From: Desulfobacterales bacterium
GTDB lineage: Bacteria > Desulfobacterota > Desulfobacteria > Desulfobacterales > UBA11574
NCBI GenBank assembly: GCA_030145345.1
Contig: JAQYVT010000027.1
Span: 1 to 32,899, forward strand
Length of the DNA stretch: 32,899 nt
Direction of reading: 5' to 3'
Below the pieces are notes generated by a model. That model did not search any database and was not told the origin of the DNA. It worked only from the letters and a program-made list of their open reading frames with translations. Of this stretch, positions 2,688-31,098 are shown piece by piece (positions within the stretch are counted from its first letter, which is position 1; each line of letters starts with the position of its first letter). The position numbers and the translations under genes are program-made.

Positions 2688-3161
2688 TCAAATCCCTGCG
2701 TTAGAAAGTTCGCGTTTTTCTAATTTTGTGTGGAGGTTACGGATTCGGCCGCTCAATACCTTGCAAATTTCCAGGGCTATTTGTGGATATTCCCGGACAA
2801 GTTCTTTGAATTCCTGTTTATGTAAAAACATAAATCTGCATGTTTCCTCAATCCGGATGCTTACCGATCGAACCGCATCTTCAAAGAGGGCCATCTCACC
2901 AAAATAATCACCGGCTTTGATTCGATCGATCTCAATCTCGTTTATTCCGCCCAGATCCTTAATCACCGACACCTCTCCTTTGACCACAAGGTACATGGTG
3001 TCTCCGACGGTTCCTTCTTGAATGATGATTTCACCCGGCGTGCAGTCGATCTCTTCGGCGACCGATGCGATGGCGGCAAGTTCGCTCACCGACAGGCTTT
3101 CAAATATATCGATGCCTCTCAAAAGCATAATCTTGTCCGAAATCGTGACGTCATCCGCCAT
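2688..3161 (-). CDS. stand-alone cyclic-nucleotide-binding (CNB) domain protein
   Basis: 157 residues, almost entirely one CNB domain (about residues 14-130). Visible marks are L-R-G-I-D-I-F-E-S-L at the start, the glycine turn Y-L-V-V-K-G-E-V, and the phosphate-binding cassette F-G-E-M-A-L-F-E-D-A-V-R-S-V with both the Glu and the Arg that contact cyclic phosphate in known CNB proteins. There is no DNA-binding helix-turn-helix, no kinase domain and no membrane segment, so it looks like a soluble sensor acting on a partner. ATG 3161 was chosen because GGAGGAAGGAGG lies just upstream; it overlaps the end of the HEAT-containing carrier by 11 nt, which implies translational coupling and suggests the carrier as partner. 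The C-terminus (R-I-R-N-L-H-T-K-L-E-K) may form a short helix. Confidence 0.9.
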   Translation of the reverse strand: MADDVTISDKIMLLRGIDIFESLSVSELAAIASVAEEIDCTPGEIIIQEGTVGDTMYLVVKGEVSVIKDLGGINEIEIDRIKAGDYFGEMALFEDAVRSVSIRIEETCRFMFLHKQEFKELVREYPQIALEICKVLSGRIRNLHTKLEKRELSNAGI

Positions 3162-5910
3162 GCTGTCCTCCTTCCTCCGCGTGTTGATCGATGATCCTCT
3201 GGGCCATCCCGCGTATAAATTTATTTTCAGACAAGGTAAATTCCAGTACGACATCATGATCGATCTGCTCAGATTTGTTATCGTGCATCAAATTCAGCGT
3301 CAATGCTGTCGTTACCCAGTCCTGATCTGTGAGCAGGTGCGAAAAAAAATTTTTTTCTTCGGAATCTAATTCGATGAGATCAAAGTTCTTCCTTCCGGCG
3401 TTAAGGTTTTCTTGGGGAGAAGAGATTTCCATAAGGGGCAACATTATTTTAAACAAGCGGTTGTCCACCATATCGTCCAGGGCTTCTATTGCGTTGGAAC
3501 GTTTACGGGCATCTGAAGATAATAATCCCCGGTAGATAATTTTTATTTGCCCGGATGGGTCCTGAACGGCCAGGACACGCAGAATGTTTTCGATTCTAAG
3601 CTGCATTTTTTCGTTAAAATGATCGATGAGAAGGTTTCGAGAAGGGTTCTCGGGGCAAGCCTCGAGACTCACGGTATTCGCCAGGTATTGATAACTTTCC
3701 TTGACCTGATTTTGTGCGAACCGGAAAATATCCAGATCTTTAATATCCAAAGACTCGAGTAAATCGAATATACCTTTTCTGACCTTGCGGTTGGGAATGA
3801 CCAGCGATTCAACCAGCAGTTGAGTATTTTGATGCGGGGCTGTTTCAATCTTTTTTTTGGCAAGTTCGTAAATATTTTCGTCGGAATCGGCCATCATCGA
3901 AATTGTTTTTCTTAAAAGCGCATCGTCATCGATTTCAATGACCGCCAGTGCCGCCCGACGCACCTTCTTCGAACTATTTGACAGATAGGGCAGGGCCCGA
4001 TCATTGAGTTCCGGAGCTCTAAGGGCATAAAGCCCATTTAAAATATCCGGCCAAACCGGCTCATTTTCTTTGTCCGCCAGCATCTCTTTGAGACTGTCGC
4101 AAAAAGAGATGTCCGCTGATCCGCCGGCAGCGATGATGCCCGCCTTCCTCTGGGCCAAATCCTCTGAACGGAGCCAGGAAGCGATGGTCGAACTGTATTT
4201 TTCCGGTGTTCGGCGATAGAGTCCTATGAGCGCATGGGCTTTAATTTCAGGATGTTTACTGTTGAGAAAGGGTTCATAATCGAATGCGGCGGAAGATTCA
4301 GTATCGAGCCGGTTTGCAGCTTTAACAGCGGCTGCGATAATATCCGGATTTTTTTCAGACGCTGCCAGACCCACCAACACATCCGCGGCCTCTTTCCCGG
4401 CCTGGGGAGACAGAAATTCTAATAGATCTGCCCGGGCGCTGCCCTTCTGATGTTTCAGCGCGGTCAAAAGATGCTGATCAAGATTTTTTATTCCCAGGGA
4501 TTTAAGCAGGCGGGCATACCAAAGGGAGCGATTTCCCCGGGCGTCGAGAAACGCCTGAACCAGCTGGGACTCTATTTTTCCCCCGCTGAAAATTTGTTGC
4601 ATGTCCGTTTCCTCCAAGGCCTTCAAATCGAACATGTCTTTTGATATGAGGTCGAGAAGGATTTTTGAATACTTCCTTTTTAACGCAAAGACCGAGGCAA
4701 GCCACGCAGCTGCAAATGGGATGGCAAGCAGGGACAAATACTTGGGATGGAACAGTTTTTCGGAAATTAATATCATACCGGATCCCATGAGCAATGCGAT
4801 TCGCACCACCGTGCCTCTGAGAAAGGGCCTTAACATAGAACGCAAGGATGTGGGAATCAGCCCCATCAAGATATTTCTGGCAGGGTTATTGATGGTTGTT
4901 CTCAGAATCATGGTGGACATCCGGGCATACATGGCCGAAAAGATGTCGAACCTGAACAAAAAGGCCAGAAACGCCAAAATATAATTGGCGGGATGAAACA
5001 TCAATGCCACCGGCAGCCCCCAACGACCGTATATGCGGCCGACAAACAAAAGAATAAACAGACTGATGGCGTTTAGAGACCCGCGAAACATGCCGAAAAA
5101 ATGTATCATACCCGATTCGGTGGCATACTGTGCATTCACCGCAAAGTTGAATTGATAATTCATTATGGGAATGATGACGTTGGGAAGAAAGGTCAATAAG
5201 ATTAAAATCTTGATCAGTGAGGACTCCTTCATTAAAGGGATAATCTTTTTGAATTCCTCAATGATGTTGCCCCGGGACGTCGATTTTTTGGCTTTTTCAT
5301 CACTAAATAAAAGTGTGGGATAAACTTTTCCCATTTGTCTGACGACAACGGCCCCGATCAGGGTGGTTCCCATGTAGATAAGCAGAAGGTTGTCGAGTGT
5401 AACGGCCTTGGCCAGAAACGGTGTGCCGAAACTTCCGAGCATTGTACCGATGACGCCGCCGGCTGTAATCAGAGGAAAAAGTCGTTTGGACTGTCTTGTA
5501 TTGAAAAGATCGTTGGCCATGTTCCAGAACAAAAGCCCAAGTAACGCCTCATACTGGGCTTTTAGCATAAATAGCGCCGGATAGATCAGATCAAAGCCAA
5601 AAGGGATTAAAAACCGTATTCCTGCGACTGAAAGGCCGCAGAATATAAAAAGGTGAGATAAAATGCGTGCGCCCGGAACTCTACCCATGATTCCGGTCAA
5701 CACCCCCATGAGAAAAAAGAGGGCGATTGAATTGAGCATATACACAATGGGGAGATATTCGACGCCGAAACGCTTTAGAAAAGCGGTTTCGGCATAATTG
5801 TTCAAGATGACGTTGGCGCTGCGCAAAAGGAAGAAAAGAAGAAATATCCACAAGAACAGGTGGATTTCATCTTCAAAAATCTTTAGCCATTTGCCGACTA
5901 ATTTCAGCAT
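3151..5910 (-). CDS. ATP/ADP-translocase-like (NTT/Npt) membrane carrier with C-terminal HEAT-repeat region
   Basis: 919 residues from ATG 5910 (or 920 from GTG 5913). Residues 1 to about 415 form some 11-12 hydrophobic segments. A segment near residues 130-160 (A-N-D-L-F-N-T-R-Q-S-K-R-L-F-P-L-I) matches the signature of nucleotide transporter (NTT) carriers, where K-R-x-(Y/F) is conserved. Residues from about 430 to 900 are soluble and rich in alternating helical units with repeated A-A/L-L and D-x-x-x-R patterns, as in HEAT/armadillo repeats. Known NTT carriers exchange ATP/ADP or import nucleotides; free-living bacteria also have NTT relatives with extra HEAT or CNB domains, whose substrates are mostly unknown. 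The start overlaps the stop of the preceding gene (TGATG), and the end overlaps the CNB gene by 11 nt. I infer a carrier controlled by the CNB protein through the HEAT region. Confidence 0.85.
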   Translation of the reverse strand: MLKLVGKWLKIFEDEIHLFLWIFLLFFLLRSANVILNNYAETAFLKRFGVEYLPIVYMLNSIALFFLMGVLTGIMGRVPGARILSHLFIFCGLSVAGIRFLIPFGFDLIYPALFMLKAQYEALLGLLFWNMANDLFNTRQSKRLFPLITAGGVIGTMLGSFGTPFLAKAVTLDNLLLIYMGTTLIGAVVVRQMGKVYPTLLFSDEKAKKSTSRGNIIEEFKKIIPLMKESSLIKILILLTFLPNVIIPIMNYQFNFAVNAQYATESGMIHFFGMFRGSLNAISLFILLFVGRIYGRWGLPVALMFHPANYILAFLAFLFRFDIFSAMYARMSTMILRTTINNPARNILMGLIPTSLRSMLRPFLRGTVVRIALLMGSGMILISEKLFHPKYLSLLAIPFAAAWLASVFALKRKYSKILLDLISKDMFDLKALEETDMQQIFSGGKIESQLVQAFLDARGNRSLWYARLLKSLGIKNLDQHLLTALKHQKGSARADLLEFLSPQAGKEAADVLVGLAASEKNPDIIAAAVKAANRLDTESSAAFDYEPFLNSKHPEIKAHALIGLYRRTPEKYSSTIASWLRSEDLAQRKAGIIAAGGSADISFCDSLKEMLADKENEPVWPDILNGLYALRAPELNDRALPYLSNSSKKVRRAALAVIEIDDDALLRKTISMMADSDENIYELAKKKIETAPHQNTQLLVESLVIPNRKVRKGIFDLLESLDIKDLDIFRFAQNQVKESYQYLANTVSLEACPENPSRNLLIDHFNEKMQLRIENILRVLAVQDPSGQIKIIYRGLLSSDARKRSNAIEALDDMVDNRLFKIMLPLMEISSPQENLNAGRKNFDLIELDSEEKNFFSHLLTDQDWVTTALTLNLMHDNKSEQIDHDVVLEFTLSENKFIRGMAQRIIDQHAEEGGQHGG

Positions 5911-6752
5911 CACCGAAGATCCCTGACCAGTCTGAAGCCGGTGGTTCTATACCGGGTCGCCGGATGTCCAAAAGACCGGTTGGCCGACCGGCATGAATGA
6001 CCGTGTTTAAACCAGCTCCCGCCACGGCGTATCCGCATGGTTCCTGAATCCGGGCCCTTGGGATCGGTTACCGGAATTTTGCCGTAATCTCCATACCAGT
6101 CCATGCACCATTCCCAGATATTGCCGTGCATATCATACAACCCCCACGGGTTGGGCCGGTAGCTTTTTACCGGTGCCGGCTGATCGATCTCTAAGCCGAT
6201 GGATTGTATATAAAGCTGGCAAACATCGTATTTGAGACTGTTGTTTCCATACATGGCCTTTTCACAATCGATGGTGTCTCCCCAGATAAAAGCGCTTCGG
6301 GTGCCGGTCCTGGCGGCGTATTCCCATTCCGCCTCTGTGGGGAGCCGATATTTTCCCTCGCCCAGCCGGTTTAGGCGTTTTATGAATTCCATACAGTCGA
6401 ACCAGGAGACCTGGGTAACCGGCATGTTATCAGAACCTTTTCGGCGCACCAACAAGCGCTTTTCCATAAGGGATCGCCATTGTTTTAACGTAACTTCGGT
6501 GGTCTGCATGTAGAATGGCCTGGTGATGGAAACCCGGTGCTGGACTTCAGAGCTGCCTCGATAGGGTTCATCCGGAGGGCTGCCCATGGTGAAAGTCCCG
6601 GATGGTATCAGGGTAAATTCCATCTCCAAAGAATTGGTCAATGTTTTTTCGAAAGCAAAAACGGAAACAGAAAAAAAGATGCTGCTTAAAACGATTAAAA
6701 GGCATACGGAAAAGGTTGAAAAGTTTTTCAACGGTGTGGTTCTTCTGCTCAT
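5910..6752 (-). CDS. exported formylglycine-generating-enzyme-like (SUMF1/FGE-sulfatase fold) protein
   Basis: 280 residues. The N-terminus has basic residues, then a hydrophobic stretch ending V-S-V-F-A-F, a likely Sec signal peptide with cleavage near residue 33. The remainder is a single FGE-sulfatase domain: F-T-L-I-P-S-G-T-F-T-M-G-S, T-E-V-T-L-K-Q-W, P-V-T-Q-V-S-W-F-D, R-L-P-T-E-A-E-W-E-Y-A-A-R, G-L-Y-D-M-H-G-N-I-W-E-W and the closing T-G-F-R-L-V-R. In true formylglycine enzymes the G-G-S segment carries two catalytic Cys five residues apart; here the first is Lys249 and only Cys254 remains, so sulfatase activation by the usual copper chemistry is unlikely. It is the first gene of the minus-strand operon, facing the divergent regulatory region. 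Probably a periplasmic FGE-fold protein of unknown role. Confidence 0.85.
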   Translation of the reverse strand: MSRRTTPLKNFSTFSVCLLIVLSSIFFSVSVFAFEKTLTNSLEMEFTLIPSGTFTMGSPPDEPYRGSSEVQHRVSITRPFYMQTTEVTLKQWRSLMEKRLLVRRKGSDNMPVTQVSWFDCMEFIKRLNRLGEGKYRLPTEAEWEYAARTGTRSAFIWGDTIDCEKAMYGNNSLKYDVCQLYIQSIGLEIDQPAPVKSYRPNPWGLYDMHGNIWEWCMDWYGDYGKIPVTDPKGPDSGTMRIRRGGSWFKHGHSCRSANRSFGHPATRYRTTGFRLVRDLR

Positions 6753-6840
6753 TGCAACACCATGAATTATTTAGGGTCAATTTTTTGTGCCGCCTTAATG
6801 AGAACTTCTCAACTTTAATTAATTTATGCCTTTTAAGTCA

Positions 6841-6863
6841 AACAGTTTTGTGAAAACACTGTT
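6841..6863. promoter_or_regulatory. operator-like inverted repeat upstream of the minus operon
   Basis: Arms AACAGTTTT and AAACACTGTT are complementary over 9 positions with one mismatch around a short centre containing GTGA. It lies about 90 bp before the formylglycine-enzyme-like gene and about 385 bp before the cyclase. The dyad is seen directly; binding by a regulator is inference. Confidence 0.4.
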
Positions 6864-6924
6864 AATACGGGCTGTTTGATTTTGATTGATTTTTAATAAT
6901 ATGTTCCAGTAGATGTTGATTATT

Positions 6925-6965
6925 TTTATCAGTATTTCTTATTTTTCTTGCGTTTATCAGTATTT
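6925..6965. repeat. two 13-bp direct repeats TTTATCAGTATTT in the divergent region
   Basis: The sequence TTTATCAGTATTT occurs at 6925-6937 and again at 6953-6965, 28 bp start to start. Exact repetition in a non-coding control region suggests paired binding sites, though the AT-rich background makes chance more likely than usual. Confidence 0.55.
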
Positions 6966-7247
6966 TTCGTGATATTTCGTTTAAATTGACAGCCGCTATG
7001 AAATGGGTTGGATATTTACGAATGGGGTGTGCGCCAATGAGGGGCGTTTGCTCAATGCCGAATAATTAATGAACTCCTTAGCAATATAAGGCCTGCCCGC
7101 AACGCTCTCGCCGGTGAGGGGGATGGATCGGCCGCTCAAAAAAGAAAATTCCGACGGCTTGCTACAGAAAGATCCGAACAAAAATTGCTCATTTATGAAT
7201 TGGAAACTTAACGTGCCTATTTAACAATTGTGGATGGACACTAACTT

Positions 7248-9320
7248 ATGAAAACCCTGACCGGTAAGTTTATTGTTTTTATTATCATTCCGGTTGTATT
7301 CATATTGTCGGCGTTATCGCTGTCAAGCTATCTGCTGGTGCATAAACTTCTGATCGATCAGATGAAGATATCCGGGCAAAATTTCCTCCGGGCCTCAGCT
7401 GAACAGGTTTCAACTCGAATCGTTCAGATTCAATCCACACTCGAGTTAATGGCAATCACCGAAAGGTTGGAAGCGAAAAATGATTCGGAGCGGCACCGTC
7501 TGTTTGTCGAGATCAAGGATCTGCTCGGCGGAGCAACGACTTCGATATTCCTGGGATTTCCGGATGGAAAGTTTGTTCGGGCAAAAACCACACCGCTGCC
7601 CCAGGATTATGACCCCCGAACCAGACCGTGGTATCTGGGTGCCTTGGGTCTGCCCACCGGCGTTATGGAAGGTGTGACAGAACCTTATCTGGATGCCGGC
7701 ACCGGGCGTCCCACCATCACCTTATATCATAAAGTCGTCAATCATGCCGGTGGATTGATGGGCGTTCTCGGAGTGGACGTGGATATCGAATCAGCATCTC
7801 GCAGCTTGATGGATAACCTTCCCATTCTTGAAAACGGTCAAAATATATTGGTCGACGCCAACGCCGTGGTCCTCCTTCACCCGGACAAAGACATGATCGG
7901 TTCGGATATCGGTATTACCGGTGTAGAATTGGACGAGCAGTTGTCCGAGGATATTAAACAAACGGAAATTCAATACAAACAGTATCTGGGCAATTACTTG
8001 AACGAACAGCGGTACCTGGGATTTCATCGCGTTCAAAACGCTCCCATCTGTTTTGTTTTAAGTGTTCCGGCCAAGACCGTCTTAAAACCCCTCGATAAAC
8101 TAACCCTTCAAATGGCGGCATTGTGTATATCGCTGATTATGGGACTATTGCTTCTGTTAATTGTGGTGACACGACGTATTTCACGACCGATTATGGATCT
8201 GACGAACTCGGCGATCCAAGTGACCGAAACGGGGCCTTACCGTGATGCTATAGACGTAAAAAGTCGGGACGAAATCGGGCAATTAACCGCAGCATTCAAC
8301 GAAATGATGGAAGGATTGCGCCAGAGGGATTTCATCCGGGACACCTTCGGCCGGTATGTCACCAAAGAAGTGGTGGAAGAACTTTTGGACACATCAGATG
8401 GTCTTAAATTGGGCGGTGAAATCAGAGAAGTAACGATTATGCTCAGCGATCTGAGGGGGTTCACCCCCCTTTGTGAACATTTAAATCCTGATCAGGTCAT
8501 TGAAGTTCTAAACGGTTATTTAAGCCGAATGTCCAAAATTATCGGCCAATACAAAGGCACCATCAATGAGTTTATCGGCGATGCCATTCTGACGTTTTTC
8601 GGTGCACCGATCAAATATGGTGACGGCCCGGCTCGGGCAGTGGCCTGTGCGTTGGCCATGCAGCTGGCCATGGAAGGGATAAACAGCGAAAACAGCGAGA
8701 AGGGACTCCCCCCGCTGTTCATGGGCATCGGCATCAATACCGGTGAGGTCATCGTCGGAAATATCGGGAGCAAAGAACGCGCCAAATATGGCGTTGTTGG
8801 GCACAATATCAATTTAACATCGCGGGTAGAGGGGGCTACGTTAGGGGGGCAGGTTCTGATTACACCGTCTACTTACGAACAGGTAAAGGATATGGTGGTC
8901 GTTCGCGGGGTCCAGCCGGTAAGATTTAAGGGTGTCGAAGAAGATATCGATCTCTATGATGTGGTCGGTATTAAAGGATCCTATAATTTAAGGTTGCCGG
9001 ACCGGATCGAACACGCAGAACCTTTGAAGACACCGATTCCGGTTATCTTGCATAAAATGCATGGAAAAAAGACGGGATCATCCGGGTTGAGTGCAGAACT
9101 GACGCATTTTTCAACCCCGTGGGCAACGGTCCTTGTTGCCGAAAAAATCGCCCCTCTGCAAGAGATACGGATCGATTTTACCGGTGATGGAGAAGAAGAT
9201 AGGATTTATTTGTATGCAAAAGTCGCTGCCGTAGCACAACAGGACGACCGCCATTCACATTCAACACAAATTACCTACCTCACCCCCATGGTAACCAAGT
9301 TTATCGACGGTTTTTCGTGA
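7248..9320 (+). CDS. membrane class III nucleotide cyclase with dCache sensor, HAMP and CHD domains
   Basis: 690 residues. A first membrane helix (about residues 8-32) is followed by a periplasmic dCache-like sensor (about 35-280) containing D-P-R-T-R-P-W-Y and G-V-L-G-V-D-V-D. A second membrane helix (about 286-308) leads to HAMP (R-R-I-S-R-P-I to E-M-M-E-G, about 309-365) and a class III cyclase domain (about 395-560). Metal-binding Asp401 (S-D-L-R-G-F-T) and Asp445 (F-I-G-D-A-I-L), and transition-state Asn522 and Arg526 (N-L-T-S-R), are present, so it should be active. The purine-selecting positions are unusual: Glu441 where adenylyl cyclases have Lys, and Gly515 where they have Asp or Thr. 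About 100 residues after 585 form an extra domain, possibly PilZ-like. No clear Shine-Dalgarno sequence precedes ATG 7248. It is divergent from the operon carrying the cyclic-nucleotide-binding protein. Confidence 0.9.
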   Translation: MKTLTGKFIVFIIIPVVFILSALSLSSYLLVHKLLIDQMKISGQNFLRASAEQVSTRIVQIQSTLELMAITERLEAKNDSERHRLFVEIKDLLGGATTSIFLGFPDGKFVRAKTTPLPQDYDPRTRPWYLGALGLPTGVMEGVTEPYLDAGTGRPTITLYHKVVNHAGGLMGVLGVDVDIESASRSLMDNLPILENGQNILVDANAVVLLHPDKDMIGSDIGITGVELDEQLSEDIKQTEIQYKQYLGNYLNEQRYLGFHRVQNAPICFVLSVPAKTVLKPLDKLTLQMAALCISLIMGLLLLLIVVTRRISRPIMDLTNSAIQVTETGPYRDAIDVKSRDEIGQLTAAFNEMMEGLRQRDFIRDTFGRYVTKEVVEELLDTSDGLKLGGEIREVTIMLSDLRGFTPLCEHLNPDQVIEVLNGYLSRMSKIIGQYKGTINEFIGDAILTFFGAPIKYGDGPARAVACALAMQLAMEGINSENSEKGLPPLFMGIGINTGEVIVGNIGSKERAKYGVVGHNINLTSRVEGATLGGQVLITPSTYEQVKDMVVVRGVQPVRFKGVEEDIDLYDVVGIKGSYNLRLPDRIEHAEPLKTPIPVILHKMHGKKTGSSGLSAELTHFSTPWATVLVAEKIAPLQEIRIDFTGDGEEDRIYLYAKVAAVAQQDDRHSHSTQITYLTPMVTKFIDGFS

Positions 9321-9579: not shown

Positions 9580-9615
9580 CCACTGGCACCCTTGATTCAT
9601 CAAATCCTTGGACCC

Positions 9616-9640
9616 TCTTCTCCAACTAAATTGGAGAAGA
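9616..9640 (+). other. perfect 10-bp hairpin in the leader of the RimK-like gene
   Basis: TCTTCTCCAA pairs fully with TTGGAGAAGA around a 5-nt loop CTAAA. It lies 30 nt before the RimK-like start and does not cover its ribosome binding site (AGGTGAG, 9661-9667). There is no U-run after it, so a leader or mRNA-stability hairpin is as likely as a terminator. Confidence 0.6.
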
Positions 9641-9670
9641 ACCAATATTATTCATCAGAAAGGTGAGAAT

Positions 9671-10555
9671 ATGGGCATCAACATAGGCATCATTACCGCC
9701 GAAGGCTATGAATACCCCCCCACAAAGCGGTTGTCAGAAGCGGCGGCCCAAAGAGGTCATCGTTTGATTGTGGTGGATCCGCTACAGGTGTGGGCCATCT
9801 TAGAGGGCGGCGATCCCGGCATGGTGGGGATCCCGAATATTGGAATATTGGATGTTGTTTTGCCCCGGCAGGGTTCGACCGTAAACGATTCCAGTCTGGC
9901 CCTGGTCCCCCATTTCCGCCAGATGGGGATTCCCCTGGTCAACAACCTGGATGCCATCCGCCTTGCAAAAGATCAATTTCTCACCCTTCAGGCGTTATCT
10001 GCCGCTCAACTGCCGATTCCGGATACCGGACTCATCAACTCCAATGAGGGCTTTGGATCCGTTTTGGCCCGATTGGGAGGGTATCCGGTGGTGGTTAAAC
10101 AGGTCAGCGGCCGTGTGGGAGAGGGGGTCTTTCTGGTTGACACGGAACACAAAGCAAGGTTGATCCTTCATAATAATCTTGAGCCCGGCAAAGGCATGTT
10201 GGTACAAAAATTTATTCCTCCCGATAACCGGCAGGATATCCGCGTTTTGGTCATCGGCGGTGTTGTCGTCGGCGCCATGAAACTCAAACCTAAGGCAGGA
10301 GACTTCAGGGCCAATTTTCATTTAAGCAAGAAAAGCTGGCCTGTGGACCTTGCAACCGAGTGGGAGAATATTTCATTGAAGGCTGCAGATGTCCTTGGGC
10401 TTGAAATCGCCGGCGTCGATTTAATTGTGGACCCCTATGGAAAGGTCTGGGTTATCGAAGTCAATTATACGCCCGGATTTACCGGCCTCGAAGCAGCCAC
10501 CGGACTGGATATCGCCGGCCGAATCATAGATTACGTTGCGGAAACCTATGGATAA
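9671..10555 (+). CDS. RimK-like ATP-grasp ligase (alpha-L-glutamate ligase family)
   Basis: 294 residues from ATG 9671, chosen because AGGTGAG lies 3-9 nt upstream; an in-frame ATG at 9608 would run back through the leader hairpin. Motifs follow RimK order: L-P-R-Q-G-S-T-V-N-D, A-K-D-Q-F-L-T-L-Q-A-L, P-V-V-V-K-Q-V-S-G-R-V-G-E-G-V, Q-D-I-R-V-L-V-I-G-G, K-A-G-D-F-R-A-N-F-H, and G-V-D-L-I-V-D through E-V-N-Y-T-P-G-F-T-G-L-E with A-T-G-L-D-I-A-G. Family members add glutamate or similar amino acids to a carboxyl end (ribosomal protein S6, coenzyme F420, lysine-biosynthesis carrier). The acceptor cannot be told from sequence; no carrier-protein gene is seen nearby. A second ATP-grasp gene starts 28 nt downstream, suggesting a two-ligase unit. 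Confidence 0.88.
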   Translation: MGINIGIITAEGYEYPPTKRLSEAAAQRGHRLIVVDPLQVWAILEGGDPGMVGIPNIGILDVVLPRQGSTVNDSSLALVPHFRQMGIPLVNNLDAIRLAKDQFLTLQALSAAQLPIPDTGLINSNEGFGSVLARLGGYPVVVKQVSGRVGEGVFLVDTEHKARLILHNNLEPGKGMLVQKFIPPDNRQDIRVLVIGGVVVGAMKLKPKAGDFRANFHLSKKSWPVDLATEWENISLKAADVLGLEIAGVDLIVDPYGKVWVIEVNYTPGFTGLEAATGLDIAGRIIDYVAETYG

Positions 10556-10583: not shown

Positions 10584-11963
10584 ATGATGTCTGAGATTTA
10601 TTTTTCTAATTATCAATTGGAAGAAGACACCCATTATTTTTTGTATATCGGATCCATAAAAAATTACGGGCCAAACATTTTTCTTAAGGAAGCACTTTCT
10701 AAAATTTACAACCGAAAGATTGATTTTATTTCAATCATCCAGGATATTTTGGCCCAATACCCCTATCCCAACCTGATGGTTATCAATCCACGGGTGGATG
10801 AATTTTCGCGCATACATGGTCGAAAAGGAAGCTGTAGAATACCGATCAAAAAATTCTTGTCCAGCGTCTCAAGCAACGATCAAGTTAAAGAATTGGTGCA
10901 AAATTTACTTGAGAGACAGAAAAAACTATACATCTATATGTACCAGAGCATGCCGGAAATGAACTTCGACCAATTGCCCGGTGTTTCCATAATTGGTCCT
11001 GACAGTAAAATATCCGACAGACTGAACAGCAAGATATTCCAATACGCAGCCTGTAAAAATCTTCTCCCCATGGTGGACTATCGAATTTGTAACGGGTTGG
11101 ACGAACTTCTAACGACAACGGATCAACTCTGGTCAACCTGGACGGAAGGTATTTTTGTCAGCGAGGAATACAGCTCCGGCGGATTGAAAAGCATCGTTGC
11201 ATACCGTCGTGACGATATCTTTGAAAGATTTAAGGATAAAAAACAAAACTATCTTATCAGTCGATTCATCCCCCACGACCATGACCCCACGGTTCTGGGT
11301 GTGGTCGCCAATGAAAATGATGTCTATATCGCTGGCGTTGCGGATCAGTTTATTGAGAACGGGACTCAGTTCGTCGGTTCCATCTTCCCGACGATACTAA
11401 ATAAAGGGTGTGTGTCCAAACTTGAAAAACATACACGCAAGATCGGGAAATGGCTGGCCCGGGAAGGTTTTCGCGGCATGTTCGGCTGCGATTACCTGGT
11501 GGACCCCGGCGGGCACATTTTTTTTCTTGAAGTAAATGCCCGCAAACAGGGAACCGTCATGGAGTTTTGCTGTGTACTTGAAAATAACTTGCCCGAAGGA
11601 TCGGCCATGCTTCCGGAACTGGAGTATTATGCCGTTCAAAAAGAGAGATTTCCGAAAAATATCCAAGAGATGTTAGAAAATCCAAATAACATCCACTGGG
11701 GAACGTACAATTACAAAATCCATCATTCGGTGAATACCTGCGCGACGATTCCCCATAACGGGCAAGAACGTGAATCTTTTAAAAAAATTGCAGAAAACCA
11801 GCTGAAAAAAGATGTTTTAATTATGGATCATATCGGCGGCGGTTTTATCGTGGCGGACGGCTCTTTTTTTGCCCGTATTGTTGCATTGGGAAAGGATCGT
11901 TCAAGTGTTATAGACGGCCTTGAGCAGGCAAAAAAGACCATTGAGTCGACCATCGGAGAATAA
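10584..11963 (+). CDS. orphan ATP-grasp-domain protein
   Basis: 459 residues. The N-terminal ~150 residues (opening Y-F-S-N-Y-Q-L-E-E-D-T-H-Y-F-L-Y-I-G) match nothing I recognise. The middle is an ATP-grasp fold: a D-S-K-I-S-D-R-L-N-S-K-I-F lead-in, G-I-F-V-S-E-E-Y-S-S-G-G, N-Y-L-I-S-R-F-I-P-H-D, and the metal/ATP motif C-D-Y-L-V-D-P-G-G-H-I-F-F-L-E-V-N-A-R-K-Q-G-T at about 308-330. The C-terminal part (V-A-D-G-S-F-F-A-R-I-V-A-L-G-K-D-R) resembles the closing domain of biotin-carboxylase-like ligases. ATG 10584 and ATG 10587 are both possible; AGGA at 10577-10580 favours 10587. It lies between the RimK-like gene and queA with 28-nt gaps on both sides, as in one transcript. Substrate unknown; not part of known queuosine synthesis. 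Confidence 0.8.
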   Translation: MMSEIYFSNYQLEEDTHYFLYIGSIKNYGPNIFLKEALSKIYNRKIDFISIIQDILAQYPYPNLMVINPRVDEFSRIHGRKGSCRIPIKKFLSSVSSNDQVKELVQNLLERQKKLYIYMYQSMPEMNFDQLPGVSIIGPDSKISDRLNSKIFQYAACKNLLPMVDYRICNGLDELLTTTDQLWSTWTEGIFVSEEYSSGGLKSIVAYRRDDIFERFKDKKQNYLISRFIPHDHDPTVLGVVANENDVYIAGVADQFIENGTQFVGSIFPTILNKGCVSKLEKHTRKIGKWLAREGFRGMFGCDYLVDPGGHIFFLEVNARKQGTVMEFCCVLENNLPEGSAMLPELEYYAVQKERFPKNIQEMLENPNNIHWGTYNYKIHHSVNTCATIPHNGQERESFKKIAENQLKKDVLIMDHIGGGFIVADGSFFARIVALGKDRSSVIDGLEQAKKTIESTIGE

Positions 11964-16370: not shown

Positions 16371-18500
16371 ATGTCTGAACATCCTGACTTGCAGAAATGG
16401 AAAGATCTTGCCACCAAGCAGCTCAGAGGAAGGCCCCTTGAAGATTTGAACTGGAAGACCCCTGAGGGAATTCCGGTCAAACCCCTCTATACCGAAGAAG
16501 ACCTTAAGGGGATGGAACATGTGAACACCCTTCCGGGTTTTTCACCGTATGTAAGGGGCCCCATGGCCACCATGTATGCCGGAAGGCCCTGGACCGTCCG
16601 CCAGTATGCGGGGTTTGCCACAGCCAAAGAGTCGAATGAATTTTATCGGAAAAACGTGGCCGCCGGTCAGACCGGACTTTCAGTGGCCTTTGATCTTGCA
16701 ACCCACAGAGGATATGATTCGGACCATCCGAGGGTTGTGGGGGATATCGGCAAAGCCGGGGTGGCTGTGGATTCCGTGGAGGATATGAAGATTCTCTTCG
16801 ATCAGATTCCGTTGGACAAGATAACGGTTTCCATGACCATGAACGGGGCGGTTCTGCCGGTCATGGCCGGATACATCGTTGCGGCGGAAGAGCAGGGCGT
16901 AAAGCAAGAGCAGCTGGGCGGAACTATTCAGAACGACGTTTTAAAGGAATACCTGACCCGAAACACCTATATCTATCCGCCTGAACCGTCCATGCGGATC
17001 GTATCCGACATTATCGGATACTGTTCCAAAAACATGCCCAGATACAATACGGTCAGTATCAGCGGTTATCACATGATGGAAGCCGGGGCCGACTCTGTTC
17101 TTCAGACGGCATTTACCCTTGCCGACGGGCTCGAATATGTTAAGGCCGCCCTGGCCGCGGGATTGGACATCGATGCATTTGCGCCGAGACTTTCGTTTTT
17201 CTTTGGCGTTGGCATGAATTTTTTCATGGAAATCGCTATGTTGAGAGCTGCCCGTTTTTTGTGGCACGAAATCATGAGCCGGTTTAACCCGAAAAACCCC
17301 AAATCGCTCATGTTGCGAACCCATGTCCAGACATCAGGCTGGAGCCTGACCCAACAGGACCCCTACAACAACATCATTCGAACCACCCTGGAGGCGCTGG
17401 CGGCAGCGTTGGGCGGAACCCAGTCTCTGCATACCAATTCCTTTGACGAGGCGGTGGGTCTTCCCACCGATTTTTCCGCCAGAATTGCCAGGAATACCCA
17501 GATTGTCATTCAGGAAGAGTCTCAAATCTGCCACGTGATCGATCCCTTGGGCGGTTCTTATTATGTAGAGGCATTGACCGACGGAATCATTAAAGCCGCC
17601 AGAAAAATTATCGAAGAAGTCGAGGAAATCGGCGGAATGGCCAAAGCCATTGAAACCGGCATGCCGAAGATGCGGATAGAAGAAGCGGCCGCCAGGAAAC
17701 AGGCCCGCATCGACCAGGGGAAAGATGTCATTGTGGGTGTCAACAAATATCAAATCGAAGAAGAACCGCTGGAAGATATTCTCGAGGTTTCAGAAGCCGT
17801 TCGAAACGAACAGATCGCAAAGTTAAAGGGGATAAAAAGAAAACGGAATGAAGATGAAGTCCGAAGAACACTGGCGGCCATAACCCATGCCGCCGATTCC
17901 GGAGGGAATCTCTTGGAAGTCTCTATTCCCGCCGTACGGGCACGGGCCACTGTCGGCGAAATTTCAGATGCAATTGAAAAGGTCTTCAACCGGTTCGTGG
18001 CCACGACCCAGTGTATATCCGGAGCATATGCCGAAGAATATGCCGACAGCGAAATCTTTAAATCCATACGTAAGAGAACCGATGAATTTCAGGAAAAGAA
18101 CGGACGAAGACCGCGGATATTGGTAATCAAGATGGGACAGGACGGTCATGACCGGGGGATAAAGGTAATTGCTACGGCATTCGCTGATCTCGGATTTGAC
18201 GTGGACATTGGTCCCATGTTCCAGACACCGGAAGAAGCCGCCCAGATGGCGGTTGAGAACGACGTGCATGTTGTGGGCGTGTCGAGCCTTGCCGCAGGGC
18301 ACAAGGCCCTGGTGCCTCAGCTTATCGAGTTTCTCAAAGAAAAAGGCGGTGAAGAAATTAATGTGGTTGTGGGCGGCGTCATTCCTCCGGCGGATTACGA
18401 ATTTTTGTATCAAGCCGGAGCAAAGGGTGTCTTTGGGCCAGGAGCCGTGGTCACCGATTCGGCAAACAAGGTTTTGAATGTTCTTGAGCGACAAAAATGA
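16371..18500 (+). CDS. mutB: methylmalonyl-CoA mutase, cobalamin-dependent catalytic subunit
   Basis: 709 residues containing both the catalytic barrel (about 30-560) and the C-terminal B12 domain (about 577-705). It rearranges (R)-methylmalonyl-CoA to succinyl-CoA through an adenosylcobalamin radical. The sequence shows the substrate-binding T-V-R-Q-Y-A-G-F, the [12 protein letters not shown] segment with the active-site Tyr-His pair, and the base-off cobalamin motif D-G-H-D-R-G with His593 as the lower axial ligand. G-V-S-S-L-A-A-G-H and G-G-V-I-P-P complete the B12 site. The ribosome binding site is AAAGGAGAA. The stop overlaps the start of meaB (ATGA). A full-length protein of this type can be active as a homodimer; no small subunit is seen. 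Confidence 0.97.
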
Positions 18501-19489
18501 TATCCGATGATCCCCAATTTTATGTTCAAGGGGTGCTGAAGTTGGATCGGCGCGTGCTTGCAAAGACCATTACCTTGATCGAAAGTTCTCTTTCTGAGCA
18601 TCAAGACCTGGCTCGGACGATTATCGATCTGCTGCTTCCATACACCGGCAAGGCCATACGCCTTGGGATTACGGGGGCGCCGGGTGTCGGAAAAAGCACG
18701 TTCATCGAAAGCCTCGGCACCATGCTGGTAAAAAAAGGGCATCGTGTGGCAGTGCTTGCCGTTGATCCAAGCAGTAAAAGGACCCGCGGAAGCGTACTCG
18801 CAGATAAAACACGCATGGAAAAGCTGTCCATCGAGGGAAATGCATTTATCCGCCCATCGCCTTCGGGGGGAACGTTGGGGGGTGTTGCAAGAAAAACCCG
18901 GGAGACAATGATTGTTTGTGAAGCCGCCGGTTTTGATGTTATGATTGTTGAAACCGTGGGTGTCGGCCAGTCTGAAACCACCGTCGCCTCCATGGTCGAT
19001 TTTTTTCTGCTGCTGATGATTTCAGGCGCAGGCGATGAACTTCAGGGAATAAAAAAGGGCGTTCTTGAACTGGCGGATGCCGTTGCAGTTAACAAAGCAG
19101 ACGGAGACAATGTTGGACGGGCGGAAATGGCTAGAAGACAGTACGAAACAGCGCTTCATTTTTTAGCACCTTATTCGCCCAATTGGACACCGCCGGTATT
19201 GACCTGCAGCGCCATAGAAATGATCGGCATTGATAAAATTTGGGAGTCCGTGTTGGCGCATCACAAAAGACTTACGCTTACCGGAGAGTTGCAGGCCAAC
19301 CGAAAAAAACAAGCAGTGGAGTGGATGTGGTCCCTTGTAAAAGAAGGCTATAGAAAACGTTTTTATCAAAATCCAGAAGTGAAAAAATTGCTTCCTGAGA
19401 TCCTAAAGGAAGTAGAGAGTGGTAAAACTTCATCCACATTGGCTGCAGCCCGCTTGCTTTTTTTGCTTGACAATAACCCTTCTGTTTAA
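18497..19489 (+). CDS. meaB: methylmalonyl-CoA-mutase-associated GTPase MeaB (ArgK family)
   Basis: 330 residues. MeaB is a G3E-type GTPase chaperone that gates cofactor loading and protects the mutase from inactivation. P-loop G-A-P-G-V-G-K-S-T is near residue 60, followed by [11 protein letters not shown], the switch regions with [10 protein letters not shown], and the guanine-specificity motif N-K-A-D. Its ATG overlaps the mutase stop by 4 nt, so the two are translationally coupled, matching their physical partnership. The C-terminal ~50 residues are the usual dimerisation arm. Confidence 0.96.
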
Positions 19490-19501
19490 AATCAAAAGGG
19501 A

Positions 19502-19510
19502 TGGTATAAT
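19502..19510 (+). promoter_or_regulatory. extended -10 promoter candidate TGGTATAAT
   Basis: TGG-TATAAT matches the TGnTATAAT extended -10 form, which does not need a good -35. It lies 21 bp before the ABM-protein start, so transcription would begin close to the AAAGGAGGA ribosome binding site. It could give the downstream carboxyltransferase genes their own transcript. The short leader makes it tentative. Confidence 0.3.
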
Positions 19511-19531
19511 CAAAGAAAGGAGGATTGCAAC

Positions 19532-19819
19532 ATGGCAGTTAAAATAATCATTAAACGAATTGTTCCCAAAAACAAGGCTGAAGCCCTAAAGCCGCTTCTT
19601 CAGAAACTTAGAAATCTGGCCATGCAACAACCCGGTTACATTTCAGGGGAAACCTTCAAAAGAATCGACCGTCCCGGGGAGAGTCTGGTGGTCAGCACCT
19701 GGCAGTCCATGGACAACTGGCGGGAATGGGTCCTCAGCGATGAGAGACAGGGAACCCAGGAGAAAATTGACCATCTGCTCGGAGAAAAAAGCGAGTATGA
19801 GATCTATACGTATGATTAA
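19532..19819 (+). CDS. small antibiotic-biosynthesis-monooxygenase (ABM) domain protein
   Basis: 95 residues, one dimeric alpha/beta-barrel (ferredoxin-like) ABM domain. Diagnostic pieces are K-I-I-I-K-R-I-V-P, Q-Q-P-G-Y-I-S-G-E-T-F and the W-Q-S-M-D-N-W-R-E-W segment that follows the central strand. AAAGGAGGA precedes ATG 19532. Known ABM proteins include quinol monooxygenases, haem-degrading enzymes and many without activity. No cofactor residue can be singled out. Its place between the mutase/MeaB pair and the carboxyltransferase suggests a role connected with propionate metabolism, but this is inference only. Confidence 0.85.
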   Translation: MAVKIIIKRIVPKNKAEALKPLLQKLRNLAMQQPGYISGETFKRIDRPGESLVVSTWQSMDNWREWVLSDERQGTQEKIDHLLGEKSEYEIYTYD

Positions 19820-19915
19820 ACAGCGAAATTTTCAATAGATCTAAAGATTGCTTAGCAGAAACCTTAGGATTAAAAAGGCAGACCATTGCAATCCTCTATT
19901 TGATTTTTTATAAGC

Positions 19916-19969
19916 GGTGGTTTATTGACCGGATGCCGAATGTCGCATCGGACCACCTAAAGGTCAATA
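19916..19969 (+). ncRNA. candidate structured leader (pseudoknot or alternative hairpins) before the 12S carboxyltransferase gene
   Basis: Three pairings are visible. GGTGGT (19916-19921) pairs with ACCACC (19952-19957); GATGC (19932-19936) pairs with GCATC (19945-19949); TATTGACC (19923-19930) pairs with GGTCAATA (19962-19969). The first and third cross each other, so they are either alternatives or an H-type pseudoknot with a hairpin in its loop. The structure ends about 10 nt before the GAAAGGA ribosome binding site and 24 nt before ATG 19994. Regulation is inferred from position; no known riboswitch class was recognised. Confidence 0.4.
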
Positions 19970-19993
19970 TCAAAAGATGAAAGGAATTTGGTA

Positions 19994-21547
19994 ATGGGTA
20001 TTATTGAAGATAAAATTAAGGATCTAAAAGAACGCGAAGCAAAGATCCTGCAGATGGGCGGCGAAAAAGCGGTTGCCAAACAGAAAGGGCAGGGGAAGCT
20101 CACCGCCCGGGAGAGACTGGACATCTTTTTTGATTCAGGCACATTTCGGGAAATCGACATGTTTGTGAGTCACCGATGTGTAAATTTCGGCATGGAAAAG
20201 ATTGATATCTCGTCCGACGGGGTTATAACCGGTCATGGTCTTGTGGACGGCCGACCGGTTTTTGCCTTTGCCCAGGATTTTACGTCCAGGGCCGGCAGTT
20301 TGGGCGAAATGCACTCAAAAAAGATTTGCAAGATTATGGATATGGCGCTCAAGGCCGGGGTTCCGTTTGTGGGCATGAATGATTCCGGTGGGGCCAGGAT
20401 CCAGGAAGGTGTCGATTCCCTTTCCGGATACGGCCAGATTTTTTACCGAAATTCCATGGCTTCGGGGGTCATTCCCCAGATTTCAGCGATTATGGGACCC
20501 ACAGCCGGAGGCGCCGTCTATTCGCCGGCCATGACGGACTGGATTTTTATGGTCAAAAATACCAGCTATATGTTTATTACCGGCCCGGATGTTATAAAAT
20601 CCGTTACCGGTGAGAAAATCACCTTTGAGGAACTCGGCGGTGCCATGGCCCACAACGAAAAGAGCGGCGTGGCGCATTTTGCCTGCGAAAGCGATGCGGA
20701 CGCCATCCATCAGATCAAAAGGCTTCTCTCTTATCTGCCCTCAAACAACATGGAAGATCCGCCCATGGTCGATACGGGTGACAATCCCCGGCGCACCGAT
20801 CCGGCATTGGACACCATTATTCCGGACAACCCCCACCAATCTTATGATATGAAGGATATCATCCGTTCAATTGTGGACAATGGTGAATTTTTCGAGCCCC
20901 ATGAGTACTTTGCCCAGAATATCATCGTCTGCCTGGCGCGGCTGAACGGGAGAAGTGTCGGGATTATCGCCAATCAGCCCCAGGTTCTTGCCGGGTGTCT
21001 GGATATCAATGCCTCGGACAAGGCCACCCGTTTTATCCGTTTTTGTGATGCCTTTAATATTCCGATGCTGACCATAGCCGATGTCCCCGGGTACCTTCCC
21101 GGGAGTGAGCAGGAGTGGAATGGGATTATTCGCCACGGCGCAAAGCTTCTCTGGTGCTATTCAGAGGCCACCGTTCCCAAAATGCTTTTGGTTACGCGAA
21201 AGGACTACGGCGGGTCTTATCTTGCCATGTGTTCTAAAGATTTAGGTGCTGACATGGCATTTGCATGGCCCACCTCAGAGATAGCGGTAATGGGTGCTGC
21301 AGGGGCTTGCAATGTCATTCATCGGAGGGCCATCAAAGGCGCCGAAGACCCCGAGGCCAAGCGCAAGGAGCTGATCAGTGAATACGAGGAACTCTTTTCA
21401 AATCCTTACTGTGCCGCCAGCCGGGGTTTTGTGGACGCGGTGATCGTTCCGAGCCAGACACGGCCGCGTCTGATCGATGCTTTGGAGATCATGTGCAGCA
21501 AAAGGGAGGTCCTCCCGCCGAAGAAACATGGGAATATTCCGATGTAA
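19994..21547 (+). CDS. methylmalonyl-CoA carboxyltransferase, 12S / MmdA / PccB-type subunit
   Basis: 517 residues with both crotonase-like carboxyltransferase halves (about 20-260 and 280-510). It moves CO2 between a biotin carrier and propionyl-CoA/methylmalonyl-CoA. Family segments are G-K-L-T-A-R-E-R-L-D, N-D-S-G-G-A-R-I-Q-E-G-V, the oxyanion loop G-P-T-A-G-G-A-V-Y-S-P-A, G-P-D-V-I-K-S-V-T-G-E, P-Q-V-L-A-G-C-L-D-I and A-D-V-P-G-Y-L-P-G. ATG 19994 is preceded by GAAAGGA; a TTG at 19988 is less likely. The same family serves propionyl-CoA carboxylase, Na+-pumping methylmalonyl-CoA decarboxylase and Propionibacterium transcarboxylase. The nearby 5S-biotin fusion, and absence of a biotin carboxylase or membrane beta subunit, favour the transcarboxylase role. 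Confidence 0.93.
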   Translation: MGIIEDKIKDLKEREAKILQMGGEKAVAKQKGQGKLTARERLDIFFDSGTFREIDMFVSHRCVNFGMEKIDISSDGVITGHGLVDGRPVFAFAQDFTSRAGSLGEMHSKKICKIMDMALKAGVPFVGMNDSGGARIQEGVDSLSGYGQIFYRNSMASGVIPQISAIMGPTAGGAVYSPAMTDWIFMVKNTSYMFITGPDVIKSVTGEKITFEELGGAMAHNEKSGVAHFACESDADAIHQIKRLLSYLPSNNMEDPPMVDTGDNPRRTDPALDTIIPDNPHQSYDMKDIIRSIVDNGEFFEPHEYFAQNIIVCLARLNGRSVGIIANQPQVLAGCLDINASDKATRFIRFCDAFNIPMLTIADVPGYLPGSEQEWNGIIRHGAKLLWCYSEATVPKMLLVTRKDYGGSYLAMCSKDLGADMAFAWPTSEIAVMGAAGACNVIHRRAIKGAEDPEAKRKELISEYEELFSNPYCAASRGFVDAVIVPSQTRPRLIDALEIMCSKREVLPPKKHGNIPM

Positions 21548-21560
21548 TTAACCGCTGAAT

Positions 21561-21616
21561 ATTGACGATTTAAGCTTTAGGAGCTTTTTTCAAATATCCA
21601 ATATTTCATCGTCAAT
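21561..21616 (+). promoter_or_regulatory. 9-bp inverted repeat enclosing a small hairpin and T-run, before the small subunit gene
   Basis: ATTGACGAT (21561-21569) pairs perfectly with ATCGTCAAT (21608-21616). Inside lies AAGCT-TTAGG-AGCTT (21572-21586) followed by T's to 21590, a weak terminator-like hairpin. The outer 3' arm directly abuts GGAG. The layout could allow alternative folding, but the inner stem is only 5 bp. Confidence 0.4.
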
Positions 21617-21632
21617 GGAGAATGGTGAAACT

Positions 21633-21848
21633 ATGGAAGAACGCAAGAAGATCGCAGCCGCAAAAGCTGCAGTGTTGAACTATATCATAACAGAGGAAGA
21701 GGCGATCTGTATTCAGTCTATGGCCGCGCCTGGGGTTAAGCCGGCTCCGGTTCCATCTGCTGCCGGGCCGGTGAGACTTTGGGGCGCCAGCGGCCGACAG
21801 GCCCAGATGCAGATGCGCAACTTGATGCAGATGAGAACCTTTAAATAA
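21633..21848 (+). CDS. small protein between the carboxyltransferase subunits (candidate transcarboxylase small subunit)
   Basis: 71 residues from ATG 21633 (GGTGA 4 nt upstream); ATG 21615 would add six residues. The N-terminal half is a charged helix (E-E-R-K-K-I-A-A-A-K-A-A-V) with T-E-E-E-A, the middle is a Pro/Ala linker, and the C-terminal tail is L-W-G-A-S-G-R-Q-A-Q-M-Q-M-R with N-L-M-Q-M-R. A W-x-x-x-G-R-Q-x-x-M-x-x-R tail reminds me of small OadG/delta-type proteins encoded beside biotin-dependent carboxyltransferases, but there is no membrane helix here as OadG would have. The gene sits between the 12S and 5S-biotin genes, the usual place for such an assembly subunit. Coding status is supported by context; function is inferred. 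Confidence 0.65.
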   Translation: MEERKKIAAAKAAVLNYIITEEEAICIQSMAAPGVKPAPVPSAAGPVRLWGASGRQAQMQMRNLMQMRTFK

Positions 21849-21932
21849 GATCGCTTCACGGTTTTATATAAAGCGGTGTTGCAGCGTTTAAATAGGAATA
21901 TAAAAAAATATTGATAAGAGGAGAACCTTAAA

Positions 21933-24005: not shown

Positions 24006-24022
24006 AACAATCGAATATTGAA

Positions 24023-24076
24023 GATTGAAATGACGCTAAGCTGGCAAGCATTTTTTTTCTTTGTCATTATTCAATC
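24023..24076 (+). promoter_or_regulatory. inverted repeat with internal T-run before sucC
   Basis: GATTGAAATGAC (24023-24034) pairs with GTCATTATTCAATC (24063-24076) as 5+7 bp with a 2-nt bulge. Between them lies a GC-rich GCTAAGCTGGCAAGC stretch followed by eight T's. The inverted repeat lies 15 nt before the AGGAGG of sucC. Its plan resembles that of 21561-21616. Confidence 0.4.
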
Positions 24077-24105
24077 CCCAATTTTGAAATAGGAGGTTCA
24101 GGATC

Positions 24106-25272
24106 ATGAAGATCCACGAATATCAGGCAAAAGAGTTGTTCAAAAAATACAACATCCCTATTCCGGAGGGCGGCGTGGCGTTCAAGCCGGAAGAAGCCCG
24201 GGGGATCGCCGAAAACCTGGGCCGATTTCCGGTGGTTGTAAAAGCCCAGATCCATGCCGGCGGCCGGGGTAAAGGCGGCGGTGTTAAACTTGCAGGGTCC
24301 GTGGATGAAGTTGGGAGCATCGCCGGCGATATCGTCGGAATGAACCTGGTGACACACCAGACCGGTCCTGAAGGGAAGACGGTCAGAAAAGTGCTCGTGG
24401 AGCAGGGGCTGAACATTGCAAAAGAGCTCTATCTGAGTATTATTCCGGACAGAGCGACCGCCAAGGTCGTTGTTATGGCCAGCGAGGCCGGTGGAATGGA
24501 TATCGAAGCGGTGGCTGCTGCAACTCCTGAAAAGATCATCAAGGTGTACATCGATCCCCTGGTGGGTATCCAGCCCTATCACTGCCGTCAAGCGGCCTTT
24601 GGTCTGAAGCTGCCCCCAACGGCAATGAAACCGTTTGTTTCAATGCTTGGAAATCTTTACCGGCTGTTTATCGATTACGACTGCTCGCTGGTAGAGATAA
24701 ATCCCCTTGTGTTGACGGCCGAGGAGACAGTGATTGCTTTGGATGCTAAAGTCGATTTTGACGACAATGCCCTGTATCGCCATAAGGATATCCTGGATTA
24801 CCGTGATATTGACGAAGAAGACCCTCTGGAGGTCGAAGCCTCCAAGTTCAATCTCAACTACATCAAACTGGATGGCAACGTCGGGAATATGGTGAACGGC
24901 GCGGGTTTGGCAATGGCGACCATGGATATCATCAAGCTTGCCGGCGCCGAGCCGGCAAACTTCCTCGATGTGGGTGGCGGTGCCAGTGCCGAGATGGTTG
25001 AGAACGGCTTTCGAATCATGCTCGGTGACGAGAATGTCAAAGGAATTCTGATCAATATTTTTGGCGGGATTTTGCGCTGCGACGTGCTGGCAAAAGGCGT
25101 TGTCAGTGCGGCGGAAAAAATCGGAATCAGTGTCCCTGTGGTGGTACGGATGGAGGGGACCAATGTGGAAGAGGGCCGGAAAATTCTAGCCGAATCCGGG
25201 CTCAATCTGATTACCGCTGCCGATATGAAAGATGCGGCAGAGAAAGTTGCCCAGCTGGTCACCGGTCACTAG
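24106..25272 (+). CDS. sucC: succinyl-CoA synthetase, beta subunit
   Basis: 388 residues, standard SucC length. It binds the nucleotide and, with SucD, interconverts succinyl-CoA + NDP + Pi and succinate + NTP + CoA. It opens [12 protein letters not shown], followed by the ATP-grasp segment [32 protein letters not shown], and the C-terminal half with [14 protein letters not shown] and [14 protein letters not shown] is 9 nt before ATG 24106. Downstream of the mutase and carboxyltransferase genes it supplies the step between succinyl-CoA and succinate. Nucleotide preference (ADP or GDP) cannot be read with confidence. Confidence 0.97.
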
Positions 25273-25347
25273 GCGTCATTTCAAAACCGCCCATTGGTTT
25301 TTGTAATGCGCTAATTTCGCGGAGTGTATTCCCGCGATCTGTCAAGG

Positions 25348-25391
25348 GTCATCGGATATTAACAAATGACCGATGACCGATGACAAATGAC
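25348..25391 (+). repeat. 8-bp inverted repeat and four 7-bp tandem repeats before sucD
   Basis: GTCATCGG (25348-25355) pairs with CCGATGAC (25370-25377). Overlapping its right arm are four heptamers AAATGAC, CGATGAC, CGATGAC, AAATGAC (25364-25391). They end about 11 nt before the GAGGAA of sucD. Hairpin or slippage-prone microsatellite; function unknown. Confidence 0.6.
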
Positions 25392-25412
25392 AAAAATATC
25401 GAGGAATGAAGA

Positions 25413-28905: not shown

Positions 28906-28906
28906 A

Positions 28907-31093: not shown

Positions 31094-31098
31094 ACACA

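Follow-up and report, generated by a model that had tools for sequence, protein, structure and literature searches.

Does a cyclic nucleotide control a carrier of the NTT family in a Desulfobacterales bacterium and, if it does, which nucleotide is used and what is carried? This question is raised by a stretch of DNA of 32,899 nucleotides (contig JAQYVT010000027.1 of assembly GCA_030145345.1), referred to here as the window. It holds an NTT carrier with a HEAT region, a free protein with a CNB domain and a membrane class III cyclase within a few genes of one another. A reading made from the sequence only had proposed that an external ligand sensed by the cyclase could control the carrier through the CNB protein. 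Its observation was confirmed, and its interpretation is partly supported.

Organization of the locus

The carrier operon lies on the reverse strand and is tightly coupled. Its first gene (5910-6752) encodes a SUMF1/FGE-like protein of 280 residues with an FGE-sulfatase domain and an N-terminal signal-like segment. The NTT-HEAT carrier follows (3151-5913, 920 residues), and its start, GTG at 5913 or ATG at 5910, overlaps the stop of the FGE-like gene. Next come the gene of the free CNB protein (2688-3161, 157 residues, ATG at 3161 and stop at 2688), a glutathione-synthetase-like ATP-grasp ligase (1687-2691, start ATG at 2685 or TTG at 2691) and an OppA-type solute-binding protein (3-1685; Pfam SBP_bac_5, 198.9 bits), which is cut by the window edge; in relatives, genes for OppB, OppC and two ABC ATPases come after it. 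The carrier and CNB genes overlap by exactly 11 nt (3151-3161), as the sequence-only reading had said, and AGGAGG stands just 5' of the CNB ATG; the domains of both proteins are borne out by Pfam. The same domain is obtained from a longer mechanical ORF for the CNB protein that starts at 3257. The remaining junctions of the operon are overlaps of a few bases or gaps of 1 nt.

A divergent intergenic region of 495 bp (6753-7247) separates the operon from the gene of a dCache-HAMP-class III cyclase on the forward strand (7248-9320), a protein of 690 residues with a PilZ-like C-terminal tail. The cyclase had been described as the divergent neighbour of the carrier; the divergence is correct and the adjacency is not, since the FGE-like gene (6752-5910), which had been omitted, stands between them. 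Two further genes follow the cyclase on the same strand. One encodes a RimK-type ATP-grasp ligase (9608-10555; NCBIfam rimK_fam, 198.3 bits against a cut-off of 143.4). The other encodes a second, divergent ATP-grasp protein of 459 residues (10584-11963; Pfam ATP-grasp_3, 28.8 bits), which has weak matches to amino-acid ligases of the LdmS/BesA type and is present only in the closest relatives (L002, L003 and L109).

Farther along the window, genes for methylmalonyl-CoA mutase, MeaB, a carboxyltransferase, an oxaloacetate-decarboxylase-like protein and succinyl-CoA ligase form a propionate/succinate pathway block (16371-26285). A sugar kinase, a sucrose-phosphate synthase/phosphatase fusion and a sucrose phosphorylase are encoded consecutively at 28006-32547, which suggests that this sulfate reducer uses sucrose as a compatible solute.

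The carrier

By profile and by predicted fold, the carrier is a member of the NTT family. Its ORF matches the Pfam TLC family (PF03219) with 28.2 bits against a cut-off of 21 (30.2 bits in the genome scan) and HEAT_2 with 39.8 bits. A phmmer search with a single NTT sequence matched no solved NTT structure; a profile of the transmembrane part recovered AtNTT1 (9j3j, E 1.2e-4), in an alignment spanning 155-369 of the 9j3j chain, whose numbering is not tied to the precursor numbering used for the nucleotide-binding residues K155, E245 and K527 of AtNTT1. An AlphaFold model of a fused homologue (L007) shows 12 transmembrane helices and, besides these, a solenoid of HEAT repeats and a CNB domain. 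It is a single monomer with a pTM of 0.51 and the sole source of the CNB-HEAT geometry used here. The model resembles the ATP/ADP translocators AtNTT1 and C. pneumoniae NTT1 (9j3l, 9j3n), with TMt values of 0.71 and 0.70 respectively and about 13% identity, and its other parts match CRP, SthK and PKG in the fold search. The carrier thus would share its fold with these two proteins; it differs from them in the added HEAT arm and CNB domain, in its free-living anaerobic host and in the low identity. Within the membrane helices of the modelled homologue, the polar or charged residues N38, E41, K46, R47, E121, N130, D134, R139, N247, N254, H309, R333, R360 and R368 are invariant or nearly so. Such conservation inside the helices is expected of a carrier and argues for a role in transport.

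The CNB protein and the published family

The free CNB protein matches cNMP_binding (PF00027) with 71.6 bits and keeps both E89 and R98 of the phosphate-binding cassette, in the motif FGEMALFEDAVRSV. With phmmer it matches structures of PKA, PKG and CRP, and the PKA and PKG domains are closest by sequence. Neither this similarity nor the cassette residues discriminate between cGMP and cAMP. Among 60 NTT-HEAT loci surveyed in the order and phylum of the window (Desulfobacterota), the CNB domain was fused to the carrier in 49 loci, encoded by a separate neighbouring gene in 11 and lacking in none. The proposed link between carrier and CNB therefore holds in 60/60 loci, and the suspicion that close homologues of the carrier might usually occur without a CNB neighbour was not borne out.

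This core is already known. The family description of 2017 by Major, Embley and Williams (PMC5381601) reports NTT-HEAT-cNBD fusions as well as NTT-HEAT genes with a cNBD gene next in line; both states occur in bacteria, Deltaproteobacteria included, and a single origin is given for the NTT-HEAT family. The same paper proposes that cAMP, the product of adenylate cyclase, could tune transport. At that date, no cyanobacterial NTT fusion had a functional characterisation. The window locus follows the family pattern, with HEAT after the NTT domain and the cNBD as the next gene: the three domains and their order are identical to those of the published family, where the cNBD is likewise fused or next (PMC5381601). 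The statement of the sequence-only reading that it knew of no described system of this make-up is therefore not supported. Compared with the passages of PMC5381601 consulted, the window locus adds the cyclase association, the prediction of a guanylyl-type enzyme, and the ligase, Opp and FGE neighbourhood.

A carrier with a cytosolic CNB domain is also found in the sperm sodium/proton exchanger SLC9C1 (8pd9), which appears in the fold search and works alike. That protein has another transporter fold and a voltage sensor and is without HEAT repeats, and there is no kinship beyond the CNB domain.

The window cyclase and its predicted product

The window cyclase carries dCache_1 (47.2 bits against a cut-off of 45), HAMP and Guanylate_cyc (93.4 bits) domains in Pfam. 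Its class III catalytic residues are present, namely the metal-binding D401 and D445 and the transition-state residues N522 and R526. The purine-selection pair is E441 and G515, that is, E in place of K at the purine site and a residue other than D at the second site, as expected of a Cya2-like guanylyl cyclase. The catalytic domain matches the guanylyl cyclase Cya2 of Synechocystis (2w01) with 206 bits. Cya2 has the same E-G pair (PMC4215837), and its E488K exchange switches the substrate to ATP (PMC5995499). The two enzymes differ in their N-terminal parts, CHASE2 in Cya2 and dCache-HAMP in the window protein. The C-terminal extension of Cya2 is structurally uncharacterised (PMC5995499), whereas the tail of the window type, modelled on a homologue (L030), matches PilZ domains, best 5vx6 and then 4xrn and Alg44.

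The window cyclase also matches, with 331 bits, the profile of a cyclase family termed A1, and the alignments show that the substrate pair and the tail are common to both. The pair is E-G in most of the A1 cyclases listed and E-A in the A1 copy of the window genome itself. Because the window cyclase and most of the listed A1 enzymes have the pair of Cya2, cGMP is predicted as a better guess for the product than cAMP. In some loci the cyclase near the carrier is of a third type, with a Q-A purine pair and membrane helices, which recurs beside the glutathione-synthetase-like gene in Desulfarculaceae-like genomes (L025, L026, L037, L155-L157 and others).

Recurrence of cyclases near the carrier

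NTT-HEAT has a class III cyclase no more than 10 kb away in 26/60 loci, against 1.5-3.9 expected from the cyclase density of these genomes, an enrichment of 7-17 times in counts that treat the loci as independent. Outside the order of the window, a cyclase is near NTT-HEAT in 8/20 genomes against 0.5 expected, on the same assumption. The associations are spread over about ten families in several different gene orders; the cyclase may be upstream on the same strand, divergent, between the glutathione-synthetase-like and Opp genes, or downstream and convergent, and yet remains near the operon. With CNB in 60/60 loci and a cyclase within 10 kb in 26/60, the carrier-cyclase-CNB arrangement is not chance. 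The proposed link between cyclase and carrier thus stands as a recurrent neighbourhood and as a genome co-occurrence, and falls short as a constant feature: half of the well-flanked loci (16/32) are without a cyclase within 10 kb. In this respect the neighbourhood survey that had been named as a check partly counts against it.

A1 is the dominant cyclase family among these neighbours. Its members are about 480-500 residues long and have what look like two membrane segments at the N-terminus, besides the C-terminal PilZ-like tail. A1 is found in 29/45 NTT-HEAT genomes of the order and in 3/246 genomes without NTT-HEAT (Fisher p 3.5e-25, or 2.9e-21 once five genomes matched to the profile-building loci are removed), figures which, like those for proximity, treat loci as independent, leave shared ancestry uncorrected and so overstate significance. 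A strict A1-type match is absent from the other 16/45. In 15 genomes the A1 gene is on the carrier's own contig, 0.35 to 7.9 kb away; in several others it lies next to Opp genes, on a contig other than the carrier's. Only close relatives (L002, L003, L109) have the window's cache cyclase type beside the operon, and the widely conserved partner is A1 and not this lineage-specific enzyme.

The A1 cyclase of the window genome (L119:8968-10407, contig C184) is convergent with OppD/F and OppC. The same arrangement occurs in the close relative L003 and in the genome of the same genus behind L181. The end of contig C184 that bears the A1 cyclase probably faces the window start, with OppB falling in the gap. 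Given this shared A1-Opp arrangement, the operon cut by the window edge probably continues across the contig gap and has a cyclase on either side.

No description of a cyclase-NTT-HEAT association was found in the literature searched, and a neighbourhood in which cyclases and peptide ligases recur would seem to be new. To the known carrier-CNB core, this analysis adds the association with cyclases, cGMP as the predicted product, and the setting among ligase and Opp genes.

Neighbouring genes and the cargo

The FGE-like protein matches the Pfam FGE-sulfatase domain with 178 bits; its best NCBIfam matches, to GldK and PvdO, are both partial and below cut-off. True FGE has two active-site cysteines. 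The RRGGSWFKHGHSC region of the protein holds only one of this pair, and the protein is named FGE-like only because the other is missing. Likewise, the ligase of the operon (GSH-S_ATP 175.5 bits, GSH-S_N 66.8 bits in Pfam) is called glutathione-synthetase-like only because it stays below the glutathione synthase equivalog cut-offs of NCBIfam (267.3 against 272, and 247.7 against 299).

Within 10 kb of the carrier in the 60 loci, homologues of the glutathione-synthetase-like ligase are found 39 times, FGE-like proteins 35, OppA/SBP5 33, GNAT 32, RimK 28, a PP-loop protein 24 and N-formylglutamate amidohydrolase 11 times. The PP-loop protein (L028:4326-5465; homologues in 24/60 loci) is 380 residues long, with SGGIDS as its PP-loop and with a CGKCEKC motif. 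It accompanies RimK and GNAT in these loci and has no match in Pfam, NCBIfam or the PDB. The GNAT is in some loci fused to a B12-binding radical SAM protein; one such fusion (L009:8393-10669) resembles RiPP C-methyltransferases with 132 bits, below cut-off. In the titles and abstracts of the literature searched, no cluster is described that combines ATP-grasp, GNAT, RimK and N-formylglutamate amidohydrolase genes. A nucleotide cargo is open to question because the neighbours are ATP-grasp and RimK ligases, GNAT, PP-loop and Opp genes, none of them a nucleotide gene, and because the similarity to known carriers is low. Judged from these genes, a peptide-like cargo seems as reasonable as a nucleotide.

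Proposed mechanism and alternatives

Our preferred reading, to which we give an even chance, is that cGMP (or cAMP) gates the NTT-HEAT carrier by way of CNB and HEAT, with the cyclases beside it supplying the signal. The carrier would have the MFS-type NTT fold, and its cytosolic HEAT arm would bear the CNB domain at its end, either covalently or as a translationally coupled subunit. Membrane class III cyclases with a predicted guanylyl cyclase activity would convert an envelope signal into cGMP; binding of cGMP (or cAMP) to the CNB domain would shift the HEAT arm and thereby open or close the carrier. What is carried is probably connected with the ATP-grasp, RimK and Opp genes around the carrier and may be either a nucleotide or a small compound resembling a peptide. 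Gene content, CNB adjacency or fusion, cyclase recurrence, active-site residues and folds are observed; which ligand binds, whether it gates the carrier, what is moved and in which direction are inferred. The complete version of this model, in which guanylyl cyclases control the carrier through CNB-HEAT, the cargo is a peptide-like product of the ATP-grasp, RimK, GNAT and PP-loop enzymes, and Opp recovers it, is unlikely to be right in all its parts.

Several other explanations share pieces of this evidence. The carrier may move what the local ligases make, either a conjugate of an amino acid or a small peptide-like molecule, which Opp retrieves, while CNB and cyclase time its release; the neighbourhood counts and the GNAT-B12 radical SAM fusions point this way, and we consider it a tentative possibility. 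Against it, there is neither a known export partner nor a known product, the glutathione-synthetase-like ligase could merely supply a thiol or another peptide, and NTT carriers of known cargo move nucleotides or NAD. The NTT fold and family fit the proposal of PMC5381601, by which the CNB domain senses cAMP made from ATP and tunes ATP/ADP exchange to the energy state; cAMP receptors are among the CNB relatives. We regard an ATP/ADP carrier under cAMP control as improbable here, given the E-G guanylyl-cyclase pair of the neighbouring cyclases, the lack of an obvious extracellular ATP source for free-living sulfate reducers, the dominance of amino-acid ligases and Opp genes in the neighbourhood, and the weak sequence resemblance to carriers with proven ATP transport (about 13% when the structures are matched). 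The same divergence from proven carriers, together with a HEAT region large enough to bind partners, would suit an NTT domain that transports nothing and acts as a membrane receptor or scaffold from which CNB-HEAT signals to other proteins. The (nearly) invariant polar and charged residues inside the membrane are carrier-like and make such a role quite improbable.

Two explanations concern the cyclase itself. That it is a chance neighbour could be argued from the restriction of the cache type to L002, L003 and L109; this is very unlikely and was disfavoured, since cyclases are 7-17 times enriched near NTT-HEAT and the window cyclase has its E-G pair and PilZ-like tail in common with the recurrent A1 family. 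A cyclase paired with a CNB effector also recalls the Pycsar anti-phage systems, and PADLOC Pycsar models match the CNB protein (52 bits) and the cyclase (67 bits). The cyclase belongs to another subfamily, with 206 bits to Cya2; the PycC matches are weak, a TIR or small transmembrane killer effector is absent, and many families keep the operon next to metabolic genes. A defence role, scarcely credible on these grounds, was rejected.

Gating of the carrier by a cyclic nucleotide would have consequences beyond this locus. To our knowledge, bacterial cGMP signalling has few described effectors besides transcription factors. The recurring cyclase neighbour is a likely source of the signal and makes the control idea of 2017 testable, corrected to favour cGMP over cAMP. 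The conserved ligase and Opp genes provide a first lead on the cargo of a widespread carrier family that reaches Chlamydiae and oomycetes.
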